The notes below the pieces were generated by a model, which was given only the letters and a program-made list of their open reading frames with translations, searched no databases and had not been told where the DNA came from. Both the position numbers and the translations under genes were made by a program. Source: Auricularia sp. M13 (taxonomy: Eukaryota; Basidiomycota; Agaricomycetes; Auriculariales; Auriculariaceae). From it: a DNA stretch of 64,000 nt. Below, one piece after another: positions 39,469 through 64,000 of the stretch (positions are counted from its first letter, which is position 1; every line of letters starts with the position of its first letter). The stretch spans positions 3,286,001 through 3,350,000 of the forward strand of contig CM073197.1 of the NCBI GenBank assembly GCA_037042915.1. The letters are read 5' to 3'.

Positions 39469-39752
39469 TGTTACGGTGACCGAGGATACTCGCCGAACGG
39501 ACGCTCTGCGGGTGGGGGAAAAAGGACGAGATGTATCGGCGGTGGGCAAACCAGCTCGAATCTAGCATACAAAGAGCGGACAACACACGGTATATAAAGG
39601 GGGTCCGGATCCGGCCGGACCGCTGACCGCAGGCCGGGGCCACGCATGCGCCGGCGGGTCTCGGTCTGATGACTCGGTCCGTATGACGTCGGCGCGAGTG
39701 AGGTCCGATAAGCCCAACGGCGATAGGAGCGAAAAGCGAATGAGCCGTAACA
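39469..39752 (-). repeat. Gypsy LTR, left copy (3' LTR)
   Basis: 284-bp terminal repeat with TG...CA ends. It contains a plus-strand TATATAAAGG, antisense to the element. TSD GCTGG precedes it. Confidence 0.95.
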
Positions 39753-39763
39753 TAACCCCCCTA

Positions 39764-42700: not shown

Positions 42701-43530
42701 GCGTAAACCTTTCCGCGGAGCTTGCGGTCGTTCTCCCATCCGGGCCGGAGGTTGATTTCGTGATCCCACCGACGATGGGGGGGTAGCTTGTCGAATTCCT
42801 TCTTTTCGAACACGTCGGCGTACTCGCGGTAGTATTCGGGGATGTCGGCGACGACGGCGGGTTTGGCGGCCTGCTCAATGCGGGTTGAGATAGACTCGAA
42901 AGCCCGAACGTACTCTTCTTCGTCGTCGGCCGCGAACTCCAAAGCGTCGGCGAGTGAGGCGAAGTCCTCGGCGAGGTAGCGGGCCGAGCTCGGCGCCGGG
43001 TTCGGCATACCACAGCGAGGCGGGCAGCGGGTGAACGTGAGCGCCCCCTTCGGCCAGTCAATTTCCGGGTTGTGCTCCACCAACCAGTCGTATCCTAGGA
43101 AGAGGTCGTGTTTTCCACCAAGGTTGGCTACCGGAAAGTCGCGCCGTTCGCGGTGTTCGCGGCCGCGTGCGTCGCGCACGACCACAAGGAGTTCGACGTA
43201 CTCCTTGATAAATCCATTGACCGAGCCGTCGGCGTTGTAGACGGTCCGAACGACGGCTGCGGCTTGGGTTGTAAGCTGCCGGCGTTTGACAAACGCCTGG
43301 TCCACACTTGAGGTCGTGCATCCACTATCCAAAAGAGCTTTGGCCGGGATCCGTTCTCCGGTGTCGAGGGAGGTGAGGGTGAGAGGTATGTTCATTTGCC
43401 TTAGGGCCGAGGGTCGGACCTCGGCGAGTCTTAGGTGTTCACGCTCGGTGTGCGTATCGACAAGACGTTCATCTGTATTCGGTACGGAGGGCACACCGTC
43501 GCCTTCCCACAGGGATCGCGCGGAAATCAC
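39764..43530 (-). pseudogene. pol: Gypsy pol: protease, RT, RNase H, integrase, chromodomain (frameshifted)
   Basis: Pol begins in the -1 frame relative to gag; the last gag codon overlaps the first open codon at 43530. Domains in order: aspartic protease with LLDSGC at residues 66-71; reverse transcriptase with VYMDD near residue 425; RNase H with TDASDYAAGGVL near 570; integrase HHCC zinc finger (H...H then CDVCQ) near 790; DDE core with SADLIGPLP and SDRGPQFVSGF near 860-920. After the integrase the frame is lost twice, at about 40317-40324 and about 40105-40160. The chromodomain (EYEVEEILDSKKLGRGVVYL, VKWAGYGREHNSWVP, about 40090-39930) is therefore out of frame with the catalytic part. 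The catalytic domains are intact. Confidence 0.88.
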
Positions 43531-44627
43531 TGCGGGGCGGAAAAATCCTTGTCCTCGGTCTCCTCGGCGTGTTCCTCCAGGAGCGTGGATTTTCCTTCGA
43601 CCATCCGAGCGATCTCCTCCATGTCCTCGGTGGAAAGGCCTCGGATGACGTCCTTGAAGTTCCTCTCCTGGCAGTCCCGAGCGAGATGGCCGGGTTTCTT
43701 GCAGCGGTAGCAGAGTCCTAGGGTCCGAGCGCGGTGACGGTCCACGTCCATGGGGTCCGGGTCGTGCGCAGGACCGGTGGTGGCTGGGGCGGTGATCGCC
43801 GGAGCGGGCGCCGCGGCAGGTACAATCACCGGTTGAGTCACCCTCTCGGTGTAATGGTGAACGAAGGGCTTGGCCGCCGGGCGCGGCGTAGAGTTGGTGG
43901 CCGGGGCGTGGTCACCGTGGCGGCGGATAATCGGGTCCTGCTCAAGGGCGTACTTGCGGAATTGAAAGTATCCGAGCGGTTTCTCGGCGTCGGCCTCCAT
44001 CTTGACGAGCTTGTCCTCGGTGGCGACCTCGGCCTTGCGAAGTCCTTCGACCGTGGCGAGACTGGTGGTCCGGAAGATTTCGTGCGACTGCATCACGGCG
44101 AGGACGAGCGCCGGCTTGAGGTTGCGCCGAAGGTAGTCGACGAGAACGATGTCGTGATACTCCGGGTTGGTAAATCCGGCCTTGATGCGGAGCTCGTCGA
44201 ACTTGAGGAAGAAGGTGTCGGCGTCGCCTCGGCCTTGAGTGAGCTTGGAGATCGCTTCGCGGGCGTGCTCGGCGATGCGCGGGTCGAGGAACTTCTCGTC
44301 GAGGTCGCGAAGGAAGTCGCTCCACTTGAGGTCCGGCGAGTCCAGGTCGTGGAGCTGACCCCAGTTCTGTGCCCAAGCGTCGGCGTCACCTTTGGTCAGG
44401 AAGCCGAGCGCGGCGAGTATCTTGTTGCGGTCGCCGGGGATTCCTTTGACGTGGAGCTCCAAGGTCCGACGGAAGGTCTCGTAGTTGGCGCGGGTCCCAT
44501 CGTAATCCTCCGGGGCCTGGACGTAGTTTTTGGTGGGTGGGTTGCCCGGTTTGAGTCCGAGCGATTTGATGGCGTTGGCCAACGACGTTTCGATGGAGGT
44601 AGCGAACTCCTCGGTCGTCATCGGCAT
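43527..44627 (-). CDS. gag: Gypsy gag (capsid/nucleocapsid)
   Basis: A 366-residue gag. Start ATG at 44627 (MPMTTEEFATSIETSLANAI), stop TGA at 43529-43527. The capsid-like region includes YETFRRTLELHVKGIPGDRN, LRDLDEKFLDPRIAEHAREA and LRRNLKPALVLAVMQSHEIF. The nucleocapsid zinc knuckle is CYRCKKPGHLARDC (CX2CX4HX4C) near residue 310. Open frame without lesions. Pol overlaps by one base in the -1 frame, as expected for programmed frameshifting or reinitiation. Confidence 0.92.
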   Translation of the reverse strand: MPMTTEEFATSIETSLANAIKSLGLKPGNPPTKNYVQAPEDYDGTRANYETFRRTLELHVKGIPGDRNKILAALGFLTKGDADAWAQNWGQLHDLDSPDLKWSDFLRDLDEKFLDPRIAEHAREAISKLTQGRGDADTFFLKFDELRIKAGFTNPEYHDIVLVDYLRRNLKPALVLAVMQSHEIFRTTSLATVEGLRKAEVATEDKLVKMEADAEKPLGYFQFRKYALEQDPIIRRHGDHAPATNSTPRPAAKPFVHHYTERVTQPVIVPAAAPAPAITAPATTGPAHDPDPMDVDRHRARTLGLCYRCKKPGHLARDCQERNFKDVIRGLSTEDMEEIARMVEGKSTLLEEHAEETEDKDFSAPQ

Positions 44628-45085: not shown

Positions 45086-48000
45086 GCTGGGTGAGTTTAT
45101 GTCATGCAGCGCATTATTTTGCTGACCAAATTAAATCCCTTTCTAGGGTTGATGACCCTGAATTTGGCTTTGTCCACTGCAAATGTACTCATTATACGGC
45201 CTACTACTGGCGCGGTGGCGAAACACTGCTGCACGGCGATTCCCTCCGAGGCGCACCAGACAACAAAGTCATGGAAGTGCTCAATTGGTTCTTGAAGGGC
45301 CTTGGGTATCCAAAACTTGTCCGGTTTCACTCTATGGAGATTGCAGAGCAGCCCGCAGGCACAGGAAGCTGCGGAATTGCAGCTACCAACGCAGTCGAGC
45401 GACTCATGGGAGCCACTGAGGACAAATGGGTTCCGGAGAGCACCACCGCTTTCCGGGACATGTGGCTCTATGACCTGCTGCAGTGGCACTGGATTAACAG
45501 GTCAGATCCTGCGGTACGTAGTACAGAGTACATTTATTTCTTCCGGCAACTCTGACAACGGCTTCACCACAGGTATATGCACCACTTCTGCGCGGAACGT
45601 ATTCGAAATCCTCTTCAGAGTGGCAGGACTTTAACATGTTTGATCTCCCAGTACGTCGCCTCTCAGACTTTGGCTCAGAGCTCTGCATGCTGATGGACAT
45701 CAGCAATCACATCCAATTGAGAGATTCATGCGCGACAAGAACACAAATCTCGTGGACTGGTCGAAAAAGAACTTTTTGCCTCAGAGCGCATCATTGGAGG
45801 ATGACCTTGATCATTGGTTGTTCCCAGAGACTCTGGTAAAACTCCAGGATTGCTTATGCGTGTATCAGAGACTAATATGCTTCTAGCCCAGTGGCAAGCG
45901 ACCAACTGTGATCACAGAGACCACTCCTATTCATATTGAGCCATCGGTACTTTCCCTCCTGCACTTCTGAGTCACCAACTCACTCAAATTCTTGTAGCCA
46001 CCGAAATTTGTACCAGCTCATCAGCTGCAAGAGTCACTCACAGGCGATCCAGACTTTCTCATGGAACTAAATTGGAGCGATAGTAGCCCAGTCCACACGC
46101 CTCAGAAGCCATCCGTTGACACCAACGCACCCCCTGCTCGCCAGACATCAGTCATCTCAATTTCCTCGACGTCAGAGGGCGAAACAATCCAGGCATCTGC
46201 AACCATTCTGCCGACAAAGAAGAAGCTGCCGATGCGTGTTGTGCTCTCCGAGCACTCCGAATCAGATGAATCCGTAATAATTGTCAAGGACGAAGCCAGG
46301 GAAGCTGTCCTACCCAAGCATGAGGGTAGCGCTGCACAGAAGGAGACGGCGGCATTGCAGTCTACGTGCGTATGAGATGAGATGCGTACGGTCATGCTCA
46401 TTCCATTCTGGCAGGGACACCATCTCAGTCCAGCCAGGTGGTCCACGAGAGTTAGACTCCTATGCATCTCTTGAGGATGGCGTCAAGGCTGTCTACAAGT
46501 GCGAGGAAGCAATCGGCTACAAATGGAAACGCGCCCAGAGCATCAAGGACGCTGCAGGTCGCCTCAAAAAGTTGACGATCCGATGCACCTGCTATTACAC
46601 CCACACCGAGCGACACGATGTTTCCATCGACCCGGCGAACCAGCGGAAATCCAAGACCATAAAGACCGGCTGCAATGCGCACGTCAATTTCAATCGTGTT
46701 GCAGGGTCTGACATGTGGCACATCACACTTGTCAATCGCACCCACAATCACCCTCGCACTCTGCCGGAGGGTGCATCGGCTCCTCGCCCGCCCTCTGGAA
46801 AGGAGAGAGAGATAGTCTCCAAGTACGCAGTGGATGGGCGCTTCGATCGCGGTCAGATACAACATATCCTGAAGGAGGCGGTTCCCGACAGCGTCCTTGA
46901 GCCTCGCCAGCTTTCCAATGTCATCAACAAGGCACGCGGTGAAGCTCGCCAGGATGTTGAGCGGCTTGGTGGGGATGCACAGGCAGTCCTGGCAATGCTG
47001 CAGCAGCTTCAGTCCGACGATCCGCGATGGTTCTACCGTGTTCAGCTTGACGACGATGGCAAGCTGGTATCCCTGTTCTGGCAGTCTCCAGAGCAGGTCG
47101 AACTCGCGCAGAGGTATGGCGATGTTGTTATCAATGACAACGCCCACAACCGCGACATGTATGCGTACTTGCTCAACATCGGCATCATTATCGACGGTCA
47201 TGGGAACAGCCGAAATGCCTGGTACGCATTTCAGGAGCGCGAGACCACAGAGAGTCACGCCTGGGTCCTTCGCGGATACGTCAAATCCACTGGATATCCT
47301 CCTGAAGTCCTGGCTTCGGATCGCGATGCTGGACTTGAAGGCGCTGCACGCCAGGAAATTCCATCAACCGATCACATCTTCTGTCTTCACCACCTGGAGG
47401 GCAACATCAGCACCAAGCTCCGTCCAGTTCTAGGCCATGACTGGCCAAAGTTTGTCACCGATTTCTGGACTATGTACCGCGCAGTCTCACCAGAAGCCTT
47501 CGATCAACTCTACGTCTCGCTCATCCAGAGGTATCCTGCCACTCGGGATTACTTGGACGCGCATCTCTATCCGGTGAGGTTCAAGTGGGCGCATGCATGG
47601 ATCTCCATGAAATTCACTGCCGGAGTCCGCACGATGGGACGGGTGGAGAGTGAGAATCGCGTCAACAAATTGCTTGGCGGCCCCAAAGTACCTTTCTTAA
47701 TGTTGTTCAAGCGTCTCAACAGCCGGACGGTGGAGCAGACAGCGAAGGCGACATCTCAGGTTCGCCAGGTATGGGTATCAGACATCAGTCTCAGACATCA
47801 TTCGCCATGCGCTAACCTTGATCGCAGACAGCACGCCGTTTTTACAATACAAACATAGAAACGACATTCGCACGCCCGCTGAAGGTCATCCGCGAGCACT
47901 GTGGTCCATTTGCACTGAGCAAGAGCTACAGTCAGATGGAGGCAAGCCTATTCTACCGAGTCGGCCGTCTCAAATTGCCTTCCGGTATCAAGTCCTGGGT

Positions 48001-50217: not shown

Positions 50218-51100
50218 ATGGCTGATCGCACACGCACGCCGTGCACCGCGCCCGTGTGCGTGATGGGCATGCAGCAGGCCAAGATGAGCCAGCACCTGTT
50301 CGCGCGCTGCGTCGCGCGTTGCAGCGTGGGAGGCATTCCCTGCGCATGTGCGCATTCTCTGCGCACCGCGCCATGCAGCCTGCGGGCACCAAGGCCAACA
50401 TGGGCGGTGAGAAGACGTTCGCAGACTCTCGCCGGGCAAGCAGGAGGGGAGCCCGAGAAGATCGAGGCGAACCGGGTCAAGGCCAACTTCGATAGCCCGG
50501 GCACGAACGGCACCGCGTCTGGCCGCCTGCGCCTCGCCGGCACCTGGATCACGCCCTCCACCGCCCGCAAGCTCACCGGCGAGTACCACCTGCAGCACAT
50601 CGTCGCCGCGCTGCTCGGCGCGAAGCCCGACCCGAGCGCCATGTACCGCCGCTCCACCAAGGCGAGCGGCGAGGACTCACCCACGGCTGACCCGCCGGCG
50701 CCAGCGCCAGCGCGCCCCGAGTTGCCCAGCTTGCCCAACAAGCGTGCGCGCCAGGTCAGCCCCGAGCAGCCGCTGCCGGCGACGCAGGCCATGCGCACGA
50801 GCACGCGCATCAAAAGCCCCGCGTGCGCTGCGGCGCGCGCGGGCGACGCCGACGCGCAGGACTCTGGCCCGGGCGTCGCGCCTGAGCCGTGTCTCCGCCG
50901 GGCAGCCGATTCTCATCGACGAGCTGCACGACGACGACGACGCGCCAGAGGTGCCTGGCCCGGACCCCGAGCAGGACATCGCAGAGTCCAAGGCGCTCGT
51001 GCACAAGATCATGGCCCAGGGCGGCGTCCCGACCAGCAACGCGCTCAAGCGCTCTGTCGCCGATCAGCGCGCAGGCGAGATCGTGCCGCTCATACGCGGG
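50218..51100 (+). pseudogene. Bqt4-like KilA-N/APSES protein, broken
   Basis: The frame near 50440-50680 reads EANRVKANFDSP, RLRLAGTWITPSTARKLTGE, LLGAKPDPSAMYRRSTKASG, which follows the KilA-N domain pattern of fungal Bqt4 (bouquet formation, telomere-nuclear envelope anchoring). The downstream segment PDPEQDIAESKALVHKIMAQ, near 50960-51020, is the helix found before the membrane anchor in that family, but it is in a different frame, so at least one frameshift lies between about 50850 and 50920. The N-terminal part of the KilA-N domain is hard to recognise and no C-terminal transmembrane helix is found. I read this as a decayed copy. Confidence 0.5.
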
Positions 51101-51258
51101 GTTATGGCCTTGAGTTCTTTTCTGGTTTGCTGCTCCCAGTTTTCTCAGGAATACTCCTGAATTTCTCTACTCCTACTCCCTATGTACATAATACTACTCC
51201 TAACTCCCACTACTCCCAGAGTCCAATTGACTCATTTTGCCTTCTCCAGGCCTTCTAA

Positions 51259-51400
51259 ATCTACCTAAGTCAGTACTCCTCCCAAACTCCCAAAATCTAC
51301 CTAAGTCAGTACTCCTCCCAAACTCCCAAAATCTACCTAAGTCAGTACTCCTCCCAAACTCCCAAAATCTACCTAAGTCAGTACTCCCAAACTCCCAAGC
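51259..51400. repeat. 36-bp minisatellite, about four copies
   Basis: ATCTACCTAAGTCAGTACTC followed by CTCCCAAACTCCCAAA recurs with starts at 51259, 51295, 51331 and 51367. The last unit is shortened. Copies are nearly identical and contiguous, without spacers, so this is not CRISPR-like. Related CTCCCAA motifs continue to about 51430. Confidence 0.9.
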
Positions 51401-51452
51401 ACCCAGTACTCCCAATACTCCCAAGCACCCAAGAAATGCAGAGCTCCTGATT

Positions 51453-51992
51453 CTAGAGCTCCTTGAGCACCCGACTTCCAGCATTCCCAACTCCCACTGC
51501 GCGAGCCAGGGCCGTTTTGGCGCTGAGACGGGCATACGGCCTCCGGACAATCTTCATAAAGTCAAGTCCCTTATCGGCCCAGTCATCCGGGGCATAAGTC
51601 CCAGCTGCGAGCGCGTGACGCGCAGCAATGTTCTCTTGCGCAGATTCGTGCGCAACCACGGTGTCGAGCATCGGGAGGTCGAGCGCGGTGAACGGCCGCA
51701 CGAAGTCCGTTGGTTCGAGGGCCGGCATTGCAGAGCCTGCGTTGAGCATCGGGGAGTCGAGAACGGGGGGAAATGACAGCGAGAAGTCGACTGGCTCCAG
51801 GACGGGCGGCACCGCAAAGCCTGGGAACGGCGCGCAGCCGCGCACTGGATCGTGCGTGGCTGTGGCGTCCATCATCGCAGCCTCGGCGCTCGACTCGTCG
51901 ATTCGAGCGCGCAACGCGTCATCCAAGGCCGCGGACCAGCGCGCAGCAGCAGCCTCAGGGGCGAACAGCGCGCTCGCTGTGCTGTCGTCCAT
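51453..51992 (-). CDS. hypothetical protein below the GC-rich repeats
   Basis: Start ATG at 51992 (MDDSTASALFAPEAAAARWS) to a stop at 51453. Composition is acidic and protein-like (ARIDESSAEAAMMDATATHD, PPVLEPVDFSLSFPPVLDSP, ALEPTDFVRPFTALDLPMLD). The same frame stays open upstream to 53195 through the minisatellites, but that part is repetitive Arg/Ala sequence and probably not coding. No domain recognised. Confidence 0.35.
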   Translation of the reverse strand: MDDSTASALFAPEAAAARWSAALDDALRARIDESSAEAAMMDATATHDPVRGCAPFPGFAVPPVLEPVDFSLSFPPVLDSPMLNAGSAMPALEPTDFVRPFTALDLPMLDTVVAHESAQENIAARHALAAGTYAPDDWADKGLDFMKIVRRPYARLSAKTALARAVGVGNAGSRVLKEL

Positions 51993-52140
51993 GGCGAGTG
52001 GGCGGGCGGACGAGAACGGGTGCGTGCCGCCGTGCGCGACCCAGCGCGTGGCGAGCGTCGTGCTGCCGGCATGGAGGTCGGCTTCCCACTGCCTGCTCGC
52101 GACGACGGGCGCGTGGTCAAAGCGCGAGACGGCGGGCGCG

Positions 52141-52965
52141 ACGGCGCGCAAGGGCAGGACGGGCAGCGCGTTGCGCGAGGCGCGCTGCCCGTTTGGCTGG
52201 TCGGCGCGCTCGTGGTCGAAGCGCGAGATGGGCAGCGCGTCGCGCGAAGCGCGCTGCCCGTTTGGCTGGTCGGCGCGCGCGTGGTCGAAGCGCGAGATGG
52301 GCAGCGCGTCGCGCGAGGCGCGCTGCCCGTTTGGCTGGTCGGCGCGCTCGTGGTCGAAGCGCCGAGACGGGCAGCGCGTCGCGCGAGGCGCGCTGCCCGT
52401 TTGGCTGGTCGGGCGCGGCGTGGTCGAAGCGCGAGCGCGAGCGCGAGCGGGAGACGGCCAGCACGGGCAGCGCGTCGCGCGAGGCGCTGCCCGTTTGGCT
52501 GGTCGGCGGCGCTCGTGGTCGGCGCGAGATGGGCAGCGCGCCGCGCGGCGAGGCGCTGCCCGTTTGGCTGGTCGGCGCGCGCGTGGTCGGGCGCGAGATG
52601 GGCAGCGCGTCGCGCGAGGCGCGCTGCCCGTTTGGCTGGTCGGCGCGCGCGTGGTCGGCGCGAGCGCGAGCGCGAGCGGGAGACGGCCAGCACGGCAGCG
52701 GCGTCGCGTCGCGAAGCGCGCTGCCCGTTTGGCTGGTCGGCGGCGGCGTGGTCGAAGCGCGAGACGGGCAGCGCGTCGCGCGAAGCGCGCTGCCCGTTTG
52801 GCTGGTCGGCGCGCTCGTGGTCGAAGCGCGAGACGGGCAGCGCGTCGCGCGCGAAGCGCGCTGCCCGTTTGGCTGGTCGGCGCGCGTGGTCGGCGAGAGA
52901 CGGGCGCGACGGCGCGCAAGGGCAGCACGGCAGCAGCGCGTCGTGCGAGGCGCTGCGCGTTTAGG
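52141..52965. repeat. about 67-bp GC-rich minisatellite with a hairpin in each unit
   Basis: About ten copies of a unit containing GCTGCCCGTTTGGCTGGTCG occur near 52186, 52253, 52322, 52391, 52488, 52555, 52621, 52722, 52790 and 52859. Most units contain GGGCAGCGCG and CGCGCTGCCC, 10-bp perfect complements around about ten bases. Units vary in length (66-101 bp). All six frames are open, so apparent proteins here are unreliable. Confidence 0.85.
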
Positions 52966-53310
52966 GAGGGCGAGCGGTGGGCGAGCATCTCGCCTTGCGC
53001 TGACGCGCGCAAGGCGGGTGACGCGACGTCGAGCCCGGCAACGGGCTCGACGTCGGCGGGCGAGCGGTGGACGAGCGTCACGCCTTGCGCTGACGCGCGC
53101 AAGGCGGGTGACGCGACGTCGAGCCCGGCAACGGGCTCGACGTCGAAGGCGGGCGAGCGGTGGACGAGCGTCACGCCTTGCGCTGACGCGCGCAAGGCGG
53201 GTGACGCGACGTCGAGCCCGTTGCCGGGCTCGACGCCGAAGGCGGGCGAGCGGTGGACGGCGTCACGCCTTGCGCTGACGCGCGCAAGGCGGGTGACGCG
53301 ACGTCGCCGT
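52966..53310. repeat. about 90-bp minisatellite with two strong hairpins per unit
   Basis: Four units start near 52967, 53058, 53151 and 53242 with GGGCGAGCGGTGG. Each has a first hairpin with stem CGCCTTGCGC, loop TGACGC, stem GCGCAAGGCG. Units 1-3 add a 14-bp palindrome, stem CGACGTCGAGCCCG, around a four-base loop (53024-53055, 53114-53145, 53207-53238). The loop is GCAA in units 1-2 and TTGC in unit 3. A further copy of the first hairpin is at about 53438. Confidence 0.88.
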
Positions 53311-53690
53311 GAGTGTGCATGTGTGCGGCAAGAGGGTCGGCTTGCGCCGGCGCGCGTACGCCGTCGCGCGTACGCCGTCCAACGTGACGGCGTTCGCGCG
53401 ACGGGCTCGACGTTGAGGGCGGCGGTAGGAGTGCGTCACGCCTTGCGCTGACGCGCGCAAGGCGGCGACAGGGACGTCGAGCCCGGGAACAGACGCTCGA
53501 GCTCGACGTCGGGTGCTGCGCCGTACGCAAAATCGCGCACGGTGCGCGGTATGTCGCCGTGAGTGTGCATCTGTGCGGCAAGAGGGTCGGCTTGCGCCAG
53601 CGCGCGTACGCCGTCGCGTGTACGCCGTCCAACGTGACGGCGTTCGCGCGACGGGCTCGACGTTGAGCGCAAGCGACGCTCGGATGAGCC
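53300..53690. repeat. duplicated block, about 125 bp, two copies
   Basis: GTCGCCGTGAGTGTGCAT...GGCAAGAGGGTCGGCTTGCG...CCAACGTGACGGCGTTCGCG occurs at about 53305-53420 and again at about 53550-53667, with few differences (for example ATGTGTGCGG against ATCTGTGCGG). It carries GCGCGTACGCCGTCGCG subrepeats. Confidence 0.8.
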
Positions 53691-54219
53691 GGGCGGGCTA
53701 GAGCAGCATGGCGTGAAGGAGCTCGTCCGTGGCGTACGTACGTACGGCGCGGCGTTCGGGAATGAGAAGTCCAAGCGCGGCTGGCGGTGGGCGGGCGCGG
53801 CTTGAGCGAGAGCTACGCGAGCGTCGTGCCCCGAGCTGGCGCGTACAAATTCATGGAGTCGCGCGGTAGCGATCGTCGAGCCCCTTCACACCGATCGAGC
53901 TTCACATCGAAGGTACACTTTCTTAATTTCTTGCTGTTTGTCGGGTTTGTAAACCGTCGAGGATGACGGAAACTCGACCGTTCTTGCTCGTAAACTCGAC
54001 CGTTCTTGCTCGTTGCAAATTCGCTACACCGTCCGTAATTACAAGATCGTCACATGGGAAATATGAAAATAACTGCAGTGGCATGTTTGCATCAGATATT
54101 ACAAATGAGATAATCGGGCGATACCGTGACGCACCAGTAATGCAGACGGAAGTTCAGGCACTTGGGATTATCCAGGATTATCCATGATCGCCCGATCGAC
54201 AGGGTCTCAAGCCATGTGA
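53691..54219. other. KDZ 3' flank with short repeats
   Basis: No gene. A 22-bp direct repeat (AAACTCGACCGTTCTTGCTCG) occurs twice at about 53970-54015. ATCGGGCGAT at 54113-54122 and its complement ATCGCCCGAT at 54187-54196 form a perfect inverted repeat. These might belong to the end of the KDZ element. Confidence 0.45.
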
Positions 54220-57125
54220 TTAATCAGCTGCCTCTCTCGATTTCTGCCGCATGCGGTTCCAAATGGCAAGGAATGTGTAAACGAGAACGATGCCGTGCCG
54301 TTGACCCATGTAACTGAGCGACTTGCGGATCTTGAGCAGACTGGAGTTCCCACATTCGCCGGCGCTCGAGTTGATGTTCCGATACTTTTCAGACCATTCC
54401 AGATACGCGCTGAGGAAACAGGCCGGCGAGCAGCGGGAGTGGTCGTGCTCATGGAAGCCATCGATGACGAAAAGGGTGTCGCCGAAGTAGATGGGTTCCC
54501 GAATCATGCAGTATGGGGACAGCGCGCAGGCGAAGTCGTACACGACGACTTTGGGTGGCCGGACCCAGTGAGTGTACAGCGGAAAAGACGTCGTTCCGCC
54601 CCCTCGCCTTTCGGGATGCAGTGAAACCCGTAGCAGACACTGTGCGGGCACCAGATGGCCATTAAGCCGCCCGTTAAGCCTTTCTTGCCATAGGTCTGAT
54701 AAAACTTGGAGCACGCCATCTTCCCGCCCGACGCCGTGACCGTCGCGCGATCGGTTGCGCCGTCTCCGGGAATGTTGGGGTACACCGATCTGTTTCGAAT
54801 GCGGGGCCGTCCGTAGAAGGTGCCAGTCTGAAATGCGTGTTAACTTTGTCACTGTCCGGGATCATTATAAAAACGAACCTCGCGCCAATCCTCATGCTCT
54901 TCGATCAGGTGTTCATCCGGGTCGTGGTGCGAAAGCGACGCGAAGACCGTTTGCGAACGGTCAAGAACAAATCCCGCGACGCTTTGAAGTGTAGAGCTGA
55001 TTTGTTTCGTCGTCTTCACTTCATACCGAGCGACGACGGCGAGGGCGGGAACGAGTGAGAGTAGCGGCAGGATGCCCTCCGCGTCGCCGTCCTTGAGCAT
55101 GTCAAGAAAGGGCCACGCCGATTTGTTTGCGAACTGTAGCACCGACTCATATGCCAGCAGCTAAATACGACGTTAGAGACAACATTACCCTGGAAAGGAA
55201 ACGAACCCACCTGCTCCAATAGATGCAAGTAATTCTTTAAGACAGTGCTGTCGAGGCTCTTCAAATCGGTCGCTACATATATGCCGAACATCTGTGCTAA
55301 TTCACGGCTCTGCTTCGCGAGTTCGTCCACAATCCCAGGCAACTTCTTTCTCATGGCCTTATCTTCCGCATCTCTCTTGTTGCGTCGTTTATTCGCCACG
55401 CGCTCCGCTCCCTCAGCATCGACATCTTCGTCAAGGGACTCCTCCGAATCGTCGCCCGGAGCGAGAGGCGTCTTTCCCTGCCGCAACTTCAGGCGCCATC
55501 GAACTGCCTGTTGGGCGCGCTTTCTGACATCGCCGTTCACCAACGACGTCTCCCCCGGCATCGGTTTCACGCTGAGTATCGATGACGCGTGCGCATCGAT
55601 GGTCGTAGGAGGTCGCAGAGACTCCGTCACCAAGTCGGCTCTGAAGCCAGCAGTCACGCCATCACACACGACGACCTCGGGTTCTTCACCGCAGATGTCG
55701 CAGACGAAGCTAACGTCCAGCTTCTGGAGTCTGGAGAACGAAAAATATGCTGTTCGGAACGTCCGCTCGCAGACGAAGGGAATTGACGACTTGGTATAAT
55801 CTCGACAAACGGATATATGGAACGCGTGGAAGGGAACCTCGGCGAGCGTCATGAGGCTAGTGTACTTGTCGAGAAGCTCGTGCGTGTACAGGCGGGAATT
55901 ATTGAAGTTGAAGATACCGAACTCGCGCAGGTCTGGCCCGGCATTCTGATGGCTTTGGGGCTCGCAGGTGCTGCAGACTTGGACTTCGATTTGGGCAGCG
56001 CACGCGGACGAGAGTCCGAATACGATGCAGTCGATGACCTTGACCGGCGCCGATTCCTTCGGACCACTCCCACAGCGGCAACGAGGATCTTCGCCGAGGC
56101 AGAAGTAGTCCGGGATAGGATCAACGAGAGCGAACGTGGGTGCATCCTCGTCAGAATCTGAGGCAATGCGCGCCCACGCCGGTGGGCCGACGTTGAGGCG
56201 GGATACGCTCCGCTCATCATCGTAATCCCTCAGACTCTTGGCTTCGGCTGCAGGGCCATTAGCATTCGGCCGGCCAAGCATCGAACACGCGAGCTCACCT
56301 CGTAGTCGCGCTCTCTCAGCTAGATCGTCACCCTCGTGTTCATCGACTTCCGCCTCCTCGAGCAGTAACTTCAACGCGTCGCGGGCACGAGCGGCTTTGA
56401 TGTGCACGCAGTTGTTGTCGCGATGCTTGCCGCAAGTCCAGTGACCCTGGTTCGAGGATCGCCCGCAATGTTGGACGATTTGTCTGCTGTGCCCTGGGAC
56501 GAAGGAGACGAAGAACGAAAGGGCGGGTGCTTGGGGTGTAGCTGGAATATGTTCGAACAAGACGGAGGAGGGATCGTCTACAGCAGTCAGTGCGAGGCTC
56601 GACGACACTACAGATAGTCAACGTACCTTTCTCGGTGAACAACTTGAACGGCGGCCGATGGTCCGACGAAAGCAGCATAGTGTGAAGACAGTATCGTTGG
56701 TCGACGTCCGAGTTGCGAAGGTAGTCGGGGCAGGTGCAGTTATACGACACGGCTTCTGCTTCGTCGACTTCGCTGCGCAGGACAGCCCAGCCGTTGACGC
56801 AACTGCCTTGCGCAGCCAACGTGTCGAGGTCGCATATCTCGGCGACCCAGGTTGAGGGATCGATGTGGAAGAAGGCGAGTCGACGCGAATCGACCGCTTC
56901 CCGGTAGGCTTCATAAACGCTCTCTGGAGCGCGCTGGGACGCCAAGATCCTGCGCCGCTTCACGGGACGGTCGACGTCGAGAGCAGGTGCTGCCCGCTTG
57001 CCCGCCGCTGTCGCCTTCGTGGAATTGCGTTTGCGAGCAGCGCTTGACGAGCTCGTGGGCTGCGAGGTCTTATTCTTTCCTCGCCGCCGCACATAGGTGG
57101 GCTCGACGAAGATATCGCGTGCCAT
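54220..57125 (-). pseudogene. KDZ transposase with SWIM finger (HMGXB3/Zisupton-like), frameshifted
   Basis: Start ATG at 57125 (MARDIFVEPTYVRRRGKNKT), stop at 54220. An N-terminal SWIM-type zinc finger reads CTCPDYLRNSDVDQRYCLH (about 56740-56680). After an intron come CHC-type clusters (HWTCGKHRDNNC; CRCGSGPKE), FGIFNFNNSRLYTHELLDKY, and the first catalytic region VCDICGEEPEVVVCDGVTAG (D). Next exons give YQTYGKKGLTGGLMAIWCPH and VVVYDFACALSPYCMIREPI (second D), then NSSAGECGNS (E) and YMGQRHGIVLVYTFLAIWNR. All three acidic residues are present. Two frameshifts within about 40 bases (about 54571-54605, around GEG-RNDVFSA) separate the first catalytic part from the second. KDZ transposases move large DNA elements in fungi and animals. 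Confidence 0.8.
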
Positions 57126-57139
57126 GAGGATCTGGATTT

Positions 57140-58195
57140 GGGACGTACGAACACTGACGCGTGCTCGACGATTCTCCGGGCAGACAACTGACGCGTTGAC
57201 TGCCACTGAGGGGAATGGACACAGAGAAATTATTAATCAGAGATTATGGCTGCTATGGAGAGCAATGGGCAAGGTTTTATTATTTAATTTGAGGATGGTG
57301 GGGCGTACGGACACTGACGCGTGCTCGACGATTCTCCGGGCAGACAACTGACACGTTGACTGCCACTGAGGGGAATGGACACAGAGAAATTATTAATCAG
57401 AGATTATGGCTGCTATGGAGAGCAACGGGCAAGGTTTTATTATTTAATTTGAGGATGGTGGGGCGTACGGACACTGACGCGTGCTCGACGATTCTCCGGG
57501 CAGACAACTGACACGTTGACTGCCACTGAGGGGAATGGACACAGAGAAATTATTAATCAGAGATTATGGCTGCTATGGAGAGCAATGGGCAAGGTTTTAT
57601 TATTTAATTTGAGGATGGTGGGGCGTACGGACACTGACGCGTGCTCGACGATTCTCCGGGCAGACAACTGACACGTTGACTGCCACTGAGGGGAATGGAC
57701 ACAGAGAAATTATTAATCAGAGATTATGGCTGCTATGGAGAGCAATGGGCAAGGTTTTATTATTTAATTTGAGGATGGTGGGGCGTACGGACACTGACGC
57801 GTGCTCGACGATTCTCCGGGCAGACAACTGACGCGTTGACTGCCACGGAGGGGAATGGACACAGAGAAATTATTAATCAGAGATTATGTCTGCTAAGGAA
57901 AGCAACGGGCAAGGTTTTATTATTTAATTTGAGGATGGTGGGGCGTACGGACACTGACGCGTGCTCGACGATTCTCCGGGCAGACAACTGACGCGTTGAC
58001 TGCCACGGAGGGGAATGGACACAGAGAAATTATTAATCAGAGATTATGTCTGCTAAGGAAAGCAACGGGCAAGGTTTTATTATTTAATTTGAGGATGGTG
58101 GGGCGTACGGACACTGACGCGTGCTCGACAATTCTCCGGGCAGACAACTGACGCGTTGACTACCACGGAGGGGAATGGGCAAAGGTAGAGTATAA
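57140..58195. repeat. 160-bp satellite, about seven units
   Basis: GGGCGTACGG begins units at 57301, 57461, 57621, 57781, 57941 and 58101, exactly 160 bases apart; a first diverged unit overlaps the start of the KDZ gene at about 57145. Units are nearly identical. Each has TGACGCG twice, first flanked by CAC and GTG, second within CAACTGACGCGTTG. The AT-rich half contains TTATTAATCAGAGATTATG and TTTTATTATTTAATTTG. In some copies the second motif is TGACACG. Confidence 0.95.
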
Positions 58196-58510
58196 AGAAA
58201 ATTTATGCCTGGCACTAGGGGGTTATACGATGTATTCAGTGGGGCAGGAGGGACGGCCGAAGAGAGCGCAGACACTGACGCGTGTCCACGCTCACCAACG
58301 ACCTGAGCTCTGGATGGCAACTGACGCGTTGCCACCGGCGGAGCGGAGGGAGGGAGGAGGGAAGGGGAAGGCGGGTGGGTGACGGGGATGGGGGTGTGCG
58401 GAGGAGGGGAGGGCGGATGAAAGACCAAAGTCCGTTCGAACTCCGACCCAGACTCACCGCCCGCCCGCTGCTGTCGACGCCACGGGTCAGTGTCCGTCCG
58501 ACAGCACGGC

Positions 58511-59023
58511 CAGGCCCGCTTAACTGCGGGCCTGTGACGAGGCCGCTCACGCGTCAGTGAGCGGCTTCTCGGCGTTCTCCTCATAGGCGAGATGATGGGG
58601 ACAGGTTCTTCGCTTAGGCGTACCTGCACGGCCACCCGCATACACGCTCACGCGCCAGTGAGCGTGGGCGGTCAGAGGAGGGTACATGCGTCAATGTATC
58701 CTCCTTGGCGTCCCTCAGAGTGCTCCTGTACATTTTCTTGTCGTTCCTCGCAGCCATTCCCCCAAGACCCCCAGACGCAGTCGCCCGCTCGCCCAAGGAC
58801 GCCACCCGCATACACGCTCACGCGTCAGTGAGCGTGGGCGATCAGAGGAGGGTATATGCGTCAATATACCCTCCTTGGTGTCCCTGGATATCTTCTTCCC
58901 GTTTCTCGCATGCATTCCCCCCGACGCTATCGCCGGCTCGCACAAGGACGCCACCCGCATACACGCTCACGCATCAGTGAGCGTGGGCGGTCAAAGGAGG
59001 GTATATGCGTCAATATACCCTCC
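58511..59023. repeat. cluster of eight hairpins with six-base loops, mostly GCGTCA
   Basis: Perfect or near-perfect stems (9-11 bp) with six-base loops lie at 58511-58534 (loop TTAACT), 58542-58565, 58643-58666, 58677-58704, 58813-58836, 58847-58874, 58962-58985 and 58996-59023. The loop is GCGTCA in five, GCGCCA in one and GCATCA in one. Two alternating stems are used: CACGCTCAC and GGAGGGTATAT. The last three pairs form units about 150-170 bp long, also repeating CGCCACCCGCATA and CTCCTTGG. Two further hairpins with TGACGC loops lie near 58272 and 58319. Confidence 0.92.
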
Positions 59024-59462
59024 TTGGCGTCCCTGGACATCTCATTCCCGTTCCTCGCATCCATTCCCCCGACGAAATCAGTGTTGCGCCCACAGTCAGA
59101 AGATATGCTCGAGCATTGGAAGATCCCTTCCCTGAAGAGCATCAGGTGCTATTTTCTTATGTTCTGTGTTGTTCAGACGTCCAGGAACGGAACGGCGTTG
59201 ACGAAGTACCACCGCGCGCTATATGCTCGCTTATCAGCATACATGCATATATGCAGCACTGGGACACGGCGGAGCAGGCTCTCTGATCTACTTTTCCTGT
59301 TATGTGGTGCAATGAAATGATTTGTTGTTTGCATTTCCTGGAGCGGTGGGCGAGTGCGATAACGAGTGACTGATATTAATCGGACGGACGGATGTGTGAC
59401 GAGGAGACCAGGAAAAAGAAAGGAATGTGGGGGGGTATCGAGGTATCTGTACTGCGATACTG

Positions 59463-61120
59463 CTACTTCGAACGCTTCTGCGCCTTCTCCCGCCAGTACT
59501 GCGCGGCCTCCTCGAGCTCCTTGCGAGCCTGCTCTGCCTGCTCCAGCCGCTCCTCCATCGCGTCGAACTTTGCTTGCTGTTCCATCATCCATGCCTCGGC
59601 GGCCTCAGCCCTCGCCGTCAGATCGGCGCGGGCTTTCATGTCCTCAGCAGCCCGCTGCTTGCGGAGGTTGTACAGCTGCTCGAACATCGTGCTGCGCATG
59701 GCCTCCGCCAGCTCGGGTTTCTCGTCCGCGATCGACTCAGAGACCCAAGTGTACATTTGCCCGCTGCCGTCCTTGGGCAGGAAGGCGATGAACGCCCACG
59801 ACGGGCACCAGTCGGCAAGCTTCTCCATCTGCGAGGTGCGCGCGTCAGCAGCGGACAGCACATCGGCGCGGACAGGGCTCACCTTCAGGCAAACACTGCC
59901 GAAGTTGGGGAGGGTGTCGTGCCACCTGTTGGTGCTCGTGGCGTTCTTCGACCACTGTGTGAGGACCCGACTCTGGCGAGTGGCGTCCGAGGCGTGACTT
60001 ATACCTGCGAGCGGCACGTTAATGAAGCACGGTATATGCGCAAGGACTTTACTTGTAATGAAGTCCCCCGCCGTACTCGTGCCTTTCCACAGGTTTGGTA
60101 TCGTGCACGAGCTCGTGTCGACGTCCTCCCGCACCTGTACAATATGCTGCACGGCCTCGTTCATCTTGGACTTGCGGTCCTTGCTGGAGTTCCAGATGTA
60201 CGCGAGCGCCGACCCGAGCTCGTGAATAGCCATCTTCTTGATTTTGGCTTCGGTGTACGGGTTGTCGTCCTCGTCCTCATCAGAGGTCTGATTGTCGTCG
60301 CCCTGGTTCTCCGCGTCCTCGATTTGAGACTCGTGCGCGGCCTGCTCGGTGAACTCGTCGATTTGAGAGGCAACGGCATCGGCGTTGTCGAAGTTCTGCG
60401 GCTCATGCATCAGCGGCGCGGCATACAGCCCATCCTCGCTATTGAAGAAGTTGTCGTCGTCGAGCCTCCTGCCGGCGTAGCTGACGCTTGCGCCGTCGTC
60501 CTGCAAGCCCTCGTCGTCGTAGGCGCGAGCGACATCTTGCTCTTGCTCGTCCGCGACGTCTTGCTCTTGCTCGTCCTCGACATCTTGCTCTTGCTCGTGC
60601 TCGTCGTCGTCGTAGGCGCGAGCGACATCTTGCTCTTGCTCGTCCGCGACGTCTTGCTCTTGCTCGTGCTCGTTGTCGTCGTAGGCGGGAGCAACGTCTT
60701 GCTCTTGCTCGTCGTCCATGAGGGAGGTAGCGGCGGTGCTTCGGGTCACGTCGCCATCGTTCTCGCTCTCGTCGAGCGTTGTGTCGCCCTCGTGCTCGGC
60801 GTCAGAATCCGAAGCCTGCTCGTCGACCTTCGTGCGACGGCTGGCAACGAGCTTGTCTCTTTGAGCACGCGTAGCCTCCATGTACTCCTGCTTCCGCTCG
60901 AGATGGTTCGCGGCTTCATCGGCCGCGAGCTAAGAAATTGCTCAGCATTTGTGGGCAGCGCGTACCGCGAGCGTCGTACCGGGCAACGGGCTCTTCCATG
61001 GGCTCTGACCTTCGTGCCTTGTGCGGCAGAGCAACGCTTGCAGGCCCTCTTGATCGTCTCCTGCGCTGGAGCTTGCTGAACGATCGCGCTCCGGCCGCTG
61101 CGAGTAGTCCGGGGTGACAT
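59463..61120 (-). CDS. acidic repeat and coiled-coil protein, unknown function
   Basis: Start ATG at 61120 (MSPRTTRSGRSAIVQQAPAQ). An 80-nt intron is placed at 61009-60930 (GTCAGA...CTTAG). The second exon runs LAADEAANHLERKQEYMEA to a stop at 59463, giving about 525 residues in all. A central block repeats EQEQDV six to seven times in acidic context. The C-terminal half contains a compact region (PSWAFIAFLPKDGSGQMYTW) and ends in a long coiled coil (MEERLEQAEQARKELEEAAQ). No enzyme motif. It lies between the hairpin arrays and the TET/JBP gene and may belong to the same mobile neighbourhood. Confidence 0.65.
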
Positions 61121-61378
61121 GGGATTTGCTGGCCGTCGTCGCGTTCGCGCAGCAAGGGATAAAATCTGGGTGGCGCGTCCTCAAAGAAATGAGTAAAAGG
61201 TGAAGGTCATGCGGTGATGGCCTGCGATCCACGCGAGGGAAGCTCTTTCACGTTTCAAGTCCTCTATCCAATCGGAATATTCTTGGGTCCAGATCGTGGG
61301 ACCGCGCAGCGACGTACTTAAGCGTCTGGGTCTCGCAGTTACAGACTTGACATTACCCCGCTCTTTAATCCTCTTTCC

Positions 61379-62431
61379 ATGCCCCCCAAGCTTCCGCTCT
61401 ACTCTCTACCGGACAAACCGACCCGCCCCAACGGCGAGTGGCAGTTTTATTGTCAGATGGTGGTGCGTATTATCCGCCGCGCTTTTCTTATGTTGCGAGA
61501 CTAAAGTCAATCAGACTGGCGAGACGATCATCGTGAACACGCCGCGCTTCAACCGGTGGTTGAGCTACGACGAGCTGCCGCCCACCGTGCTCTCTCTCCT
61601 GAACGACTGGGAGAAAAACTTGTTCGTCGAGGTGTTGCAGGTGCACCCAAGTTACGGTGAGGATATTCCTCGCTATGCGCACCTGAAGGAAGGCGACGAT
61701 ATGGACATGGGCCGGGATGGCCATGACTGTGACGGCATGTCCATCGTCGTACAGCTCCGGCTTGTGCGCAGGCCGTACAGCGGATCCGAGCTGCCAGATC
61801 CTATCCTCCAACCGAGAACCCGAATCCCGGAGATACTACCTGGCGACACCGCCGCCGCCGCTGCCGCTCCTGCCCGCACCGCAGCCGCTGCCGCTCCACG
61901 AACCAACCCCGCCGCCGCTGCCGCTCCCGCCCGCACCGCTGCCGCTGCCGCTCCACGAACCAACCCCGCCGCCGCTGCCGCTCCGCCCGCACCGCTGCCG
62001 CTGCCGCTCCACGAACCAACCCCGCCGCCACCGGCGCTCCCGCTCACGTGCCCACCGCCACCGCTCCCCCTCCACGCACCAAACGCGCCGTCGCCCCCGC
62101 CACCGTGCCGCGAAGCACCCGCCGCCGCCGCCGCCGCCGCCACCGCTGCCACTCCCTCGCCAACGCTGGCCTCCGCGGTGGCGCCGCCAGCGGGACGGCA
62201 ATCATGCAGCGGCCAATGGCTGGTTCGGCCAGCCGCAATGGCCGCCCCAAACCTAACCCGTTCGCCACCCCGGTGCCCGTTCCCGGCCCGTCGAAGAGCC
62301 GCGACGTCGCCAGTGCCAGGCAGGCACCCGCGGCACCGTCGAGCAGGGACAAGCGCAAGAGAGACATGCAGGGCGAGGTCGATGAGCAGCAGGAACTCCA
62401 GCCGGTGACGAAGAAGTCTCGTTCGGCTTGA
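61379..62431 (+). CDS. unknown Ala/Pro-rich protein with one apparent frameshift
   Basis: Start ATG at 61379 (MPPKLPLYSLPDKPTRPNGE). A short intron at about 61468-61506 leads into VNQTGETIIVNTPRFNRWLS, LLNDWEKNLFVEVLQVHPSY and IPRYAHLKEGDDMDMGRDGH, a compact N-terminal domain of unknown family. A low-complexity region follows with a 57-bp repeat (APARTAAAAAPRTNPAAAA). The third copy is 56 bases long, which throws the frame. Restoring frame gives an Arg-rich stretch and a C-terminus with a nuclear localisation-like SSRDKRKRD and VTKKSRSA, with stop at 62431. Without the restoration the frame ends at 62408. Function unknown. Confidence 0.55.
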
Positions 62432-62615
62432 ATACCCTTCCCTTAATTTATTTTAATCACTTTGTAATCTCGATGAGCCTGTCCTTGACCCTCTTAACCG
62501 CCAATCTTAATGCTTTCATTTGTTCATGATGAATGAGTGCCCGAAAATTAGTAAGGTGAGATATGAGTGCATATATGCTTGCCAGGGTGAGTTGAATACA
62601 TGCGCTCTTCAGAAA

Positions 62616-64000
62616 CTAATTCATCGGTTCATCGCAGTCACCGTTGCCTTCGTCGAAAGGCGGCTTATAGCCCGCCATTTCTTTGTATGTGAAAAGCTTG
62701 ACCTTCGTTGCACCGACCTCCGCAAGGACATTCTTGTGCATGAAGTGCGCAATCGCGATGCGCTGACCGCCTGCGAATTGAACAGAGTGCTTCAAGATGC
62801 CCCCTCTAATGAACGCAAGTGTTCCGGGAGATAGTTAATGTCCGAACCCGCGACACGAAGCGTGCCTTCGCGGTATTTACCCACTGTGAGAATCGGCGTC
62901 CATGCGAGCTTCATATCGCGGCGGTCAGTGTGTTCGCCGGTCTCTCGATTGTAGATGAGACTTCTCCCGTGGAGGAAGGAGGGGTCGGCAGCGGCCAGCG
63001 CGGCATATGCGGGGTACATGGCTTTCAACTTCTCCGAGGCATCGTTGAAGAGGTTGTACTGCTCGGGGTCGATGAGCTGGAACATGTCCATGAGTCGCAT
63101 GGTCACGAGCCGCAGCTCTCGAAGCAACGCGAGCCCCGCGTTGAGGTTGTCTGTTTTCTTGAAGAGATCGCGAGCGGGCCCCGCAGGGCCATTGTTCGCC
63201 TTCACCCGGTGAGCACACACACTCTAGGCTGATCATCTGAGCTCACCGATCGACCGAGGGCCCTCCAGATGGATACCAACTGGAATACGCCGTGCAGTTC
63301 GTCTTGATGCTCCTGCCGAGTATAGCATTCTTCCGCGTCTCTCGCATTCTGATCTGCGCCAGCGCGAATTTTCACACCGACACTGCGCCCGAAGTCCATG
63401 AGACTCTTGAATAGGATGTCCTGAGTTTATTCCGCACGTGAGTAGGAGTTTCCGCAGCAGCGCGGACGCACATGACTAGCTTTGGATAACCAGTTCGGGA
63501 AAACGATGACAGCAGGTACGTCTTTCTTGTCCACGAGGACAAAAGGCTCATCGCTGACCCTGGCCGTCACAGATTCGAAGGCGGGGTAAGGCTTGCTGTT
63601 GCGCTCTTGATTCCTGTCGACGAGCGCGGCGAGGTCGAGCTCGGGAACGCGGTCTGTACGGAGGAGTTGGTGAGGGCATGTATTCTCAACAGTACGTACG
63701 TATATTCCCGGGCTTCAGCGCAGTCTCTAGCATCTTCTTATTGAGACGATGCCAGCTTGTAAGCATCTTCGCCTCGAGTTTCTCGGGATTTAGTGCTCTG
63801 GATTTCCTTCGTGGCAAGTCAGAGCAAGTGCGTGAGTGTTCAGGCGATGCTGACTTATGCTTGCGGCCTTTAGCTTTTGTCCCAGTTTCCGCGAGCGGCT
63901 CAGCAGCTGATTCGCCAGCCGCGAGAGTCCCAGCAGCTTGTACCGGAGTCACAGGTTGCTCAGTGACCTGTCCAGCATCGTCGTCCGATAGAGCTTCCTC
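62616..64000 (-). CDS. TET/JBP-family 2-oxoglutarate Fe(II) dioxygenase, 5' end off window
   Basis: TET/JBP enzymes oxidise 5-methylcytosine or thymine in DNA. The C-terminal part is visible and the 5' end lies beyond 64000. The upstream exon (about 63999-63700) is basic and disordered (GTKAKGRKHKSASPEHSRTC). Next segments read VLVDKKDVPAVIVFPNWLSK and LHGVFQLVSIWRALGRS. The catalytic part reads SLIYNRETGEHTDRRD with the HxD iron motif (HTD, 62932-62924), then LAWTPILTVGKYREGTLRV. The distal iron His is in GGILKHSVQF (62789) and the 2-oxoglutarate Arg in GGQRIAIAHF (62762). Between DINYLP and the following GTLAFIRGG the frame is lost by one base at about 62824-62828 (in a CCGGG run), so the gene is a pseudogene or the base is missing from the assembly. 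Stop TAG at 62618-62616. Confidence 0.72.

Follow-up and report, generated by a model that had tools for sequence, protein, structure and literature searches.

Introduction

Translation can be controlled by a hairpin in the leader, as in the iron-responsive element, whose six-base loop is fixed. In our study, a family of hairpins with a near-constant six-base loop and changing stems was found in the genome of the fungus Auricularia sp. M13, where it is concentrated in one 18.87-kb transposon of the KDZ (Kyakuja-Dileera-Zisupton) kind; the iron-responsive element differs from these hairpins in its loop and its bulge. The stretch of DNA analysed, called the window, comprises 64,000 nucleotides (C5:3286001-3350000; contig CM073197.1 of assembly GCA_037042915.1) of a 52.1-Mb genome in 14 contigs. 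Positions with the prefix L070 belong to the adjoining stretch, L070:1 being window position 64001.

Smaug recognition elements (SREs) of Smaug/Vts1 have been searched for as the loop CNGGN0-4 'on a non-specific stem' (PMC4053848). The hairpins described here resemble the SREs in their short fixed loop, their arbitrary stem and, probably, a loop-based recognition. They are unlike them in the loop (GCGUCA, or GNNYCA in general) and in being tandem copies in transposon leaders; the loops GCGTCA, GCGCCA, GCATCA and GAGTCA do not fit CNGGN0-4. Bacterial repetitive extragenic palindromes and bacterial interspersed mosaic elements (REP/BIME; PMC2817692) are likewise short palindromes in regular composite arrays that are tied to a transposase, whereas the present hairpins lie inside a single eukaryotic transposon with a transposase of another kind. 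In abstracts, the 5' untranslated region of mouse L1 is described as made up of monomers, tandem units that vary in number and adjoin the coding region on its upstream side, which is similar to the arrangement found here; L1 is a retrotransposon, and constant-loop, variable-stem hairpins are not among the features that those abstracts describe.

Zisupton and Kyakuja elements bearing TET genes are reported from Auriculariales in the main text of PMC12730594, in which a term search did not find the word hairpin. The present element shares with Zisupton/KDZ transposons a CxC4/KDZ transposase and the 8-bp target duplications described for Zisupton, and one of its frames gave a weak TET/JBP match. 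It differs from them in its length, in further genes without a Pfam match and in its internal hairpin family. A search of the open-licence literature on KDZ transposons, conserved-loop transposon hairpins, fungal leaders and the literal loop gave nothing relevant among the matches listed.

The hairpin family

The hairpins that a first-pass annotation of the window had described were present at their places. Five with the CGCCTTGCGC arm were found at 53001-53449 and two in each 160-bp unit at 57.14-58.18 kb, followed by those with the arms GACAC (58276), TGGCAAC (58322), GCCGCTCAC (58551), CACGCTCAC (58652, 58822 and 58971) and the GGAGGGTATAT type (58688, 58858 and 59007). The annotation had given all of them one hexaloop, which is correct for most. 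The CACGCTCAC hairpins at 58652 and 58971 have the loops GCGCCA and GCATCA (hairpin G has GCGCCA, GCGTCA and GCATCA in its three copies), and three of the seven CAAC hairpins of the array (57349, 57509 and 57669) have TGACAC. Further members were found beyond the annotated interval at L070:1160 (GAGTCA), 1201 (GCGTCA), 1379 and 1519 (both GCATCA). The stems of hairpins I, J and K are CGTTCGC, GCCACGCTCAC (one C.A) and CTGCGTAGAC (one A.G), respectively. The loop variants were GCGCCA, GCATCA and GAGTCA, with GTGTCA in some array units. In 15 aligned hairpins the loop stayed within GNNYCA, the G, C and A nucleotides at positions 1, 5 and 6 being invariant.

The loop was found to be in excess in the window. 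Among 22 perfect stems of at least 7 bp with a 6-nucleotide (nt) loop, ten had TGACGC/GCGTCA; the next loop occurred twice and the other ten loops once each. A covariance model (R1) was made from 20 synthetic hairpins that combined random stems with the GCGTCA loop. At E<=10 it matched the window 19 times; the 16 matches of at least 19 bits were all within 52991-59022, and two of the three weaker matches were outside the element. A control model with the reversed loop gave one match, at 11.7 bits. Counted as distinct 6-bp stems per hexaloop over 53 loops in the DNA examined, GCGTCA had six (two of them variants of hairpin A), three loops had two and 49 loops had one. No Rfam covariance model matched within the window at the gathering threshold.

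The hexamer GCGTCA/TGACGC was located in stems of at least 4 bp at all 18 of its occurrences in 57126-59154 (11 in the 160-bp array), at 5 of 13 in 52960-53520 and at one of two in L070:954-1752. The rest of the element gave none of seven in 53521-57125, 59155-63990 and L070:1753-5971 together, and fewer than three perfect pairs for each of the five hexamers in 51099-52959 and L070:1-953. Outside the element, 1 of 30 hexamers in the window lay in such a stem. Genome-wide, CACGCGTCAGTG occurred 98 times; the backwards word was present 11 times, and two altered words 9 and 5 times. By a tally of the listing, 71 of the 98 places were in element copies. Another 6 followed one another on C1 at intervals of 9.5 kb, and 21 were scattered, about double the number for the controls; neither of two scattered places (L012 and L030) was a strong hairpin. 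The six on C1 (C1:7802229-7849764), matches to the 12-base core with a spacing of about 9.5 kb, are possibly a ribosomal DNA array, judging by the spacing alone. L096 contains one hairpin with the five-base loop CGTCA, probably by chance.

While the loop is nearly constant, the stems change on both arms. By eye, hairpin F differs from G and J in two pairs and H1 from H2 and H3 in one pair, and each arm has a 4-nt insertion that distinguishes B from E; a variant of hairpin A, CGCCCTGCGC/GCGCAGGGCG, is also changed on both arms. In a diverged relative at C9:2.774 Mb (67% identity over 138 columns), the place of hairpin K is occupied by TGGAC-GCGCCA-GTCCA, whose loop is within GNNYCA and whose stem is different. 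The hairpins were decayed in L091, a related left end.

Hairpins were often paired at a distance of 31-46 nt (C-B, D-E, G-H and K-I), and hairpins A and F were each paired with a neighbouring palindrome having another loop. The palindrome beside hairpin A, CGACGTCGAGCCCG (53024-53238), has the 4-nt loop GCAA in two units and TTGC in the third. On the transposase strand, the 160-bp unit contains a branch-point-like CTGAT, an acceptor-like CCCCTCAG (CCCCTCCG in some units) ending just before the hairpins and a donor-like GTACGC just after both, as though the hairpin pair were a repeated mini-exon.

Putative ATG-free leaders and RNA folding

Two of the hairpin clusters were found in stretches devoid of ATG. 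In the 74 kb scanned (both strands of the window and L070), no stretch free of ATG was longer than 57126-58583 on the minus strand. Its part 57126-58340 contained no ATG against 18.2 expected, whereas the opposite strand contained 29 against 28.8 expected. The second-longest stretch is a repeat with a GC content of 0.77. The third-longest, on the plus strand at L070:954-1752, includes hairpins I, J and K and is closed by the ATG with which gene 4 first starts. Both stretches are directly upstream of genes (the transposase gene and gene 4), and in both the coding strand reads GCGTCA or a close variant. In the nine element copies having both landmarks, the sense leader contained no ATG and the other strand 5-29. 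With repetition discounted, 5.3 ATGs were expected in one 160-nt unit and 58179-58583 together (probability of none, 0.0055), and 8.7 in the L070 stretch, for which an ATG-free result occurred in 0 of 2000 simulations. A lack of this kind is expected of a transcribed leader that ribosomes scan.

When six hairpins were folded alone as both strands, the GCGUCA sense was more stable in five (C, D, E, F and H1). A 407-nt stretch of the leader folded with a z-score of -6.2 in the sense and -3.4 in the antisense direction.

The transposon and its genes

The hairpin-bearing repeat was found to extend from 51099 to C5:3355971 (L070:5971), a length of 18,873 bp. Eleven further copies start at 51098/51099; ten stop at L070:5971-5974, and the eleventh is interrupted and then resumes at 5863-5971. 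Both ends were read in 11 copies. The 8-bp target duplication, as in Zisupton, was identical at 8/8 bp in seven of these, and the remaining four matched at 1-2 of 8. The termini, GGGTTATG.. and ..CATATCTG, are only weakly alike. The inverted repeat TGGTTTGCTRCTCCCAG, 17 bp long with one mismatch, is common to both ends and lies 24 bp inside each; it is a candidate transposase site, and a better one than the hairpins. After the left repeat, a tandem array with a 36-bp period occupies 51257-51398. The element is a KDZ DNA transposon, a known kind. It is a giant multigene element and has about a dozen recent copies with 8-bp duplications. The region of gene 2 (59154-61294) is missing from two copies (L037 and L042) and shows an identity of about 99.5% among most of the others; the identical junction of the two and the absence of a duplication are read as a shared deletion.

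The transposase, with its cysteine cluster, matched CxC4 at E 2.7e-37, and the KDZ domain itself was matched weakly (14.2 bits at E 0.037, the cut-off being 26.6 bits). Eleven relatives were found in the database, the best named ones being from Auriculariales at 37-38% identity. The 143-residue exon-like frame matched the TET/JBP family PF12851 at E 0.0013 with 18.5 bits, below the curated cut-off of 34.9; a TET-bearing KDZ element would be expected to have such a frame. For nine further frames outside the transposase gene, Pfam gave nothing at E<=0.001, and a database search with two accessory proteins found no homologue. Gene 0 is apparently a coding minisatellite, its long open frame containing repeats of 93 bp (31 codons) and 69 bp (23 codons); by eye, its C-terminus is similar in the copy L050 and the remainder varies strongly. 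A plus-strand open reading frame (ORF) at 59400-61079 overlaps the more plausible minus-strand gene 2; the codon-position counts at 96 variable sites (34/21/41) agree only weakly with this choice. Outside the element, the window contained a long terminal repeat (LTR) retrotransposon at 39562-44627 on the minus strand, with reverse transcriptase, RNase H, integrase and gag domains, and a Mutator-like element (MULE) transposase with a FAR1-like DNA-binding domain at 46281-47858.

The annotation had linked the hairpins to KDZ genes. The linkage holds for this element, whose copies carry the clusters genome-wide. It was not seen at five other KDZ genes, among several dozen in the genome, whose 2.4-kb upstream stretches (from estimated gene starts) were read: no such hairpins were found there, and a palindrome scan gave no stem with a GCGTCA loop. 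For these five, the result is the one that the annotation had named as refuting its proposal.

Table 1. Positions of the hairpins, genes and other features of the KDZ element
Feature	Position	Strand	Description
Element, window part	51099..64000	.	18.87-kb KDZ element, continuing to C5:3355971
Target site duplication, 8 bp	left 51091..51098; right C5:3355972-3355979	.	CATACGCG, identical 8-mers
Subterminal inverted repeat	51123..51139	+	TGGTTTGCTGCTCCCAG; counterpart with one base changed, 24 bp before right end
Gene 0, open frame	51453..53195	-	rich in 93-bp and 69-bp repeats; covers first three CGCCTTGCGC hairpins
Hairpin A array	52991..53464	-	CGCCTTGCGC-GCGTCA-GCGCAAGGCG, 5 copies; loops at 53001, 53091, 53184, 53276, 53449
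KDZ transposase gene	54220..57125	-	ATG at 57125; CxC4 in ORF 55016-56608; weak KDZ match in 54220-54852
Transposase ATG-free leader	57126..58583	-	no sense ATG in 1458 nt
160-bp tandem array	57139..58178	-	two hairpins (B, C) per unit
Hairpin B	160-bp array	-	GGCAG(T)CAAC-GCGTCA-GTTG(T)CTGCC
Hairpin C	160-bp array	-	CGAGCAC-GCGTCA-GTGTTCG (GTGTCCG in most units)
Hairpin D	58264..58293	-	GAGCGTGGACAC-GCGTCA-GTGTCTGCGCTC; 12 bp, two G.U pairs on minus strand
Hairpin E	58313..58336	-	GGTGGCAAC-GCGTCA-GTTGCCATC; one G.U
G-rich purine tract	58340..58440	+	hairpin orientation flips here
Hairpin F	58539..58568	+	GAGGCCGCTCAC-GCGTCA-GTGAGCGGCTTC; one G.U
Three G and H hairpin pairs	58643..59025	+	G, CACGCTCAC-loop-GTGAGCGTG; H, AGGAGGGTAYAT-GCGTCA-ATRTAYCCTCCT
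Gene 2	59463-60929	-	open frame
Frame	61.3-62.4 kb	+	
Frames	62.6-64.3 kb	-	
Exon-like frame	62792..63223	-	weak TET/JBP dioxygenase match
Gene 4	L070:1753 (first ATG), frames reaching 5689	+	putative exon structure

Discussion

A fixed loop on an arbitrary paired stem is the mark of loop recognition in RNA, and the leader hairpins are therefore read as probable protein-binding stem-loops. We give an even chance to the interpretation that they are cis-acting RNA stem-loops of one giant KDZ transposon, in which protein sites bound at the loop would tune the mRNAs (messenger RNAs) of the element. The coding strand in the leaders of the transposase and of a second gene would present GCGUCA, or a close variant within GNNYCA, on an arbitrary self-complementary stem. 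The leaders are probably transcribed, in which case the hairpins would form in the RNA of the element. Their most likely reader would be an RNA-binding protein specific for the loop, from either the host or the element, and the bound leader hairpins may tune the translation or the stability of the element mRNAs. Two clusters lie in ATG-free leaders, which suits an RNA interpretation better than the readings proposed in the annotation.

Several observations weigh against this interpretation. Hairpin J was more stable in the antisense. The internal G.U and C.A pairs, which had suggested a strand bias in the reference hairpins (6 G.U against 2 C.A), showed no strand preference over all 34 distinct variants (9 against 8), and that bias was dropped as proof; in the A array C.A pairs outnumbered U.G pairs by 9 to 5, overlapping loci being counted repeatedly. 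Read in the sense of gene 0, the A array also has GCGTCA, but at least some of it is inside the open frame of that gene. The F/G/H cluster contained 10 ATG against 10.3 expected and was depleted on neither strand; this, together with the overlap of the plus-strand ORF with gene 2, led to the rejection of a plus-strand leader for it. The simulated P values of both ATG-free stretches are flattered, as the stretches were delimited by ATGs, and the 160-nt unit alone (probability of none, 0.056) and 58179-58583 alone (0.096) are each insufficient. In the alignment of 15 hairpins (A3) 91.3% of the cells pair, against at most 50% when slid, but its members were selected for pairing, and its covariation and pair score are descriptive and no independent proof. 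Model R1, run on L070 at E<=10, missed hairpins J and K, and weak or variant hairpins could escape it. Domain searches recognised no RNA-binding protein among the element proteins. The C9 relative does not clearly retain hairpin I, the neighbour of K, and another related piece (L099) had no such hairpins and almost no similarity at that place. In nine nearly identical copies (the truncated L040 and L042 being left out), variable sites numbered 2 of 54 in the loop, 4 of 168 in the stem and 19 of 589 in the surroundings, and variation in loop and stem was thus not clearly below that of the surroundings; the copies are too young for testing selection.

The main rival, which we consider rather unlikely, takes the tandem units and palindromes as DNA sites of transcription factors, that is, as promoter monomers, with transcription starting inside the array and the later units becoming an ATG-free leader. 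It agrees with the variable unit number among copies (408 to 1208 nt from the leader to hairpin E), with an array that stops 13 bp before the transposase ATG and has a G-rich tract at its far end, and with the precedent of the mouse L1 monomer arrays as given in abstracts. The tract, where the orientation of the hairpins flips, is from its sequence a possible bidirectional promoter. A binding site should preserve its arms, yet here the arms change while staying complementary and the centre is constant, and every motif copy in 57126-59154 lies in a stem. It is quite improbable that the hairpins act in DNA, as cruciforms or as hairpins in single strands, to which the transposase or some other protein of the element would bind in transposition or replication. 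The arms are near-perfect palindromes, and all listed hairpins left of 58.4 kb read GCGTCA on the minus strand and those to the right on the plus strand, like sites round a centre. On the other hand, the five other KDZ genes lacked hairpins in the stretches read, and the annotation's suggestion of subterminal transposase-binding sites was not borne out, because the hairpins lie at least 1.9 kb inside (1.9 kb from the left and about 4.4 kb from the right end) and the ends carry a different shared inverted repeat.

A non-functional origin appears equally improbable. One ancestral palindrome would have been multiplied by tandem duplication, its arms being corrected by a fold-back or hairpin template and its loop being constant by descent. 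Shared pieces among the families (CGCTCAC in F, G and J; CAAC in B and E; CAC in C and D) agree with such an origin, as do the copies, which show no loop conservation above background, and the two orientations of the 4-nt loop in the CGACGTCGAGCCCG palindrome, by which loop inversion occurs here. Fold-back synthesis, which the first-pass annotation had proposed, accounts for the perfect arms and leaves the constancy of the loop unexplained: arm correction leaves the loop unprotected, and H and I have the identical loop on stems that share little with the others. Nor does this origin predict leaders free of ATG.

If the RNA interpretation holds, these hairpins would be a new form of an RNA signal of known kind. 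A further step, which we regard as unlikely, is that the transposon runs an RNA regulon of its own: several of its units, sharing GNNYCA hairpins on drifting stems, would be controlled together after transcription by a dedicated loop-specific binder, encoded perhaps by an accessory gene of the element without a recognised domain. Repeats that are defined by loop and pairing may also escape repeat searches that group by sequence. To our knowledge, little is known of the post-transcriptional control of eukaryotic DNA transposases. A loop-defined family across the genes of one large element, if true, would make such control directly accessible to tests and might bring to light a new RNA-protein pair with loop specificity.

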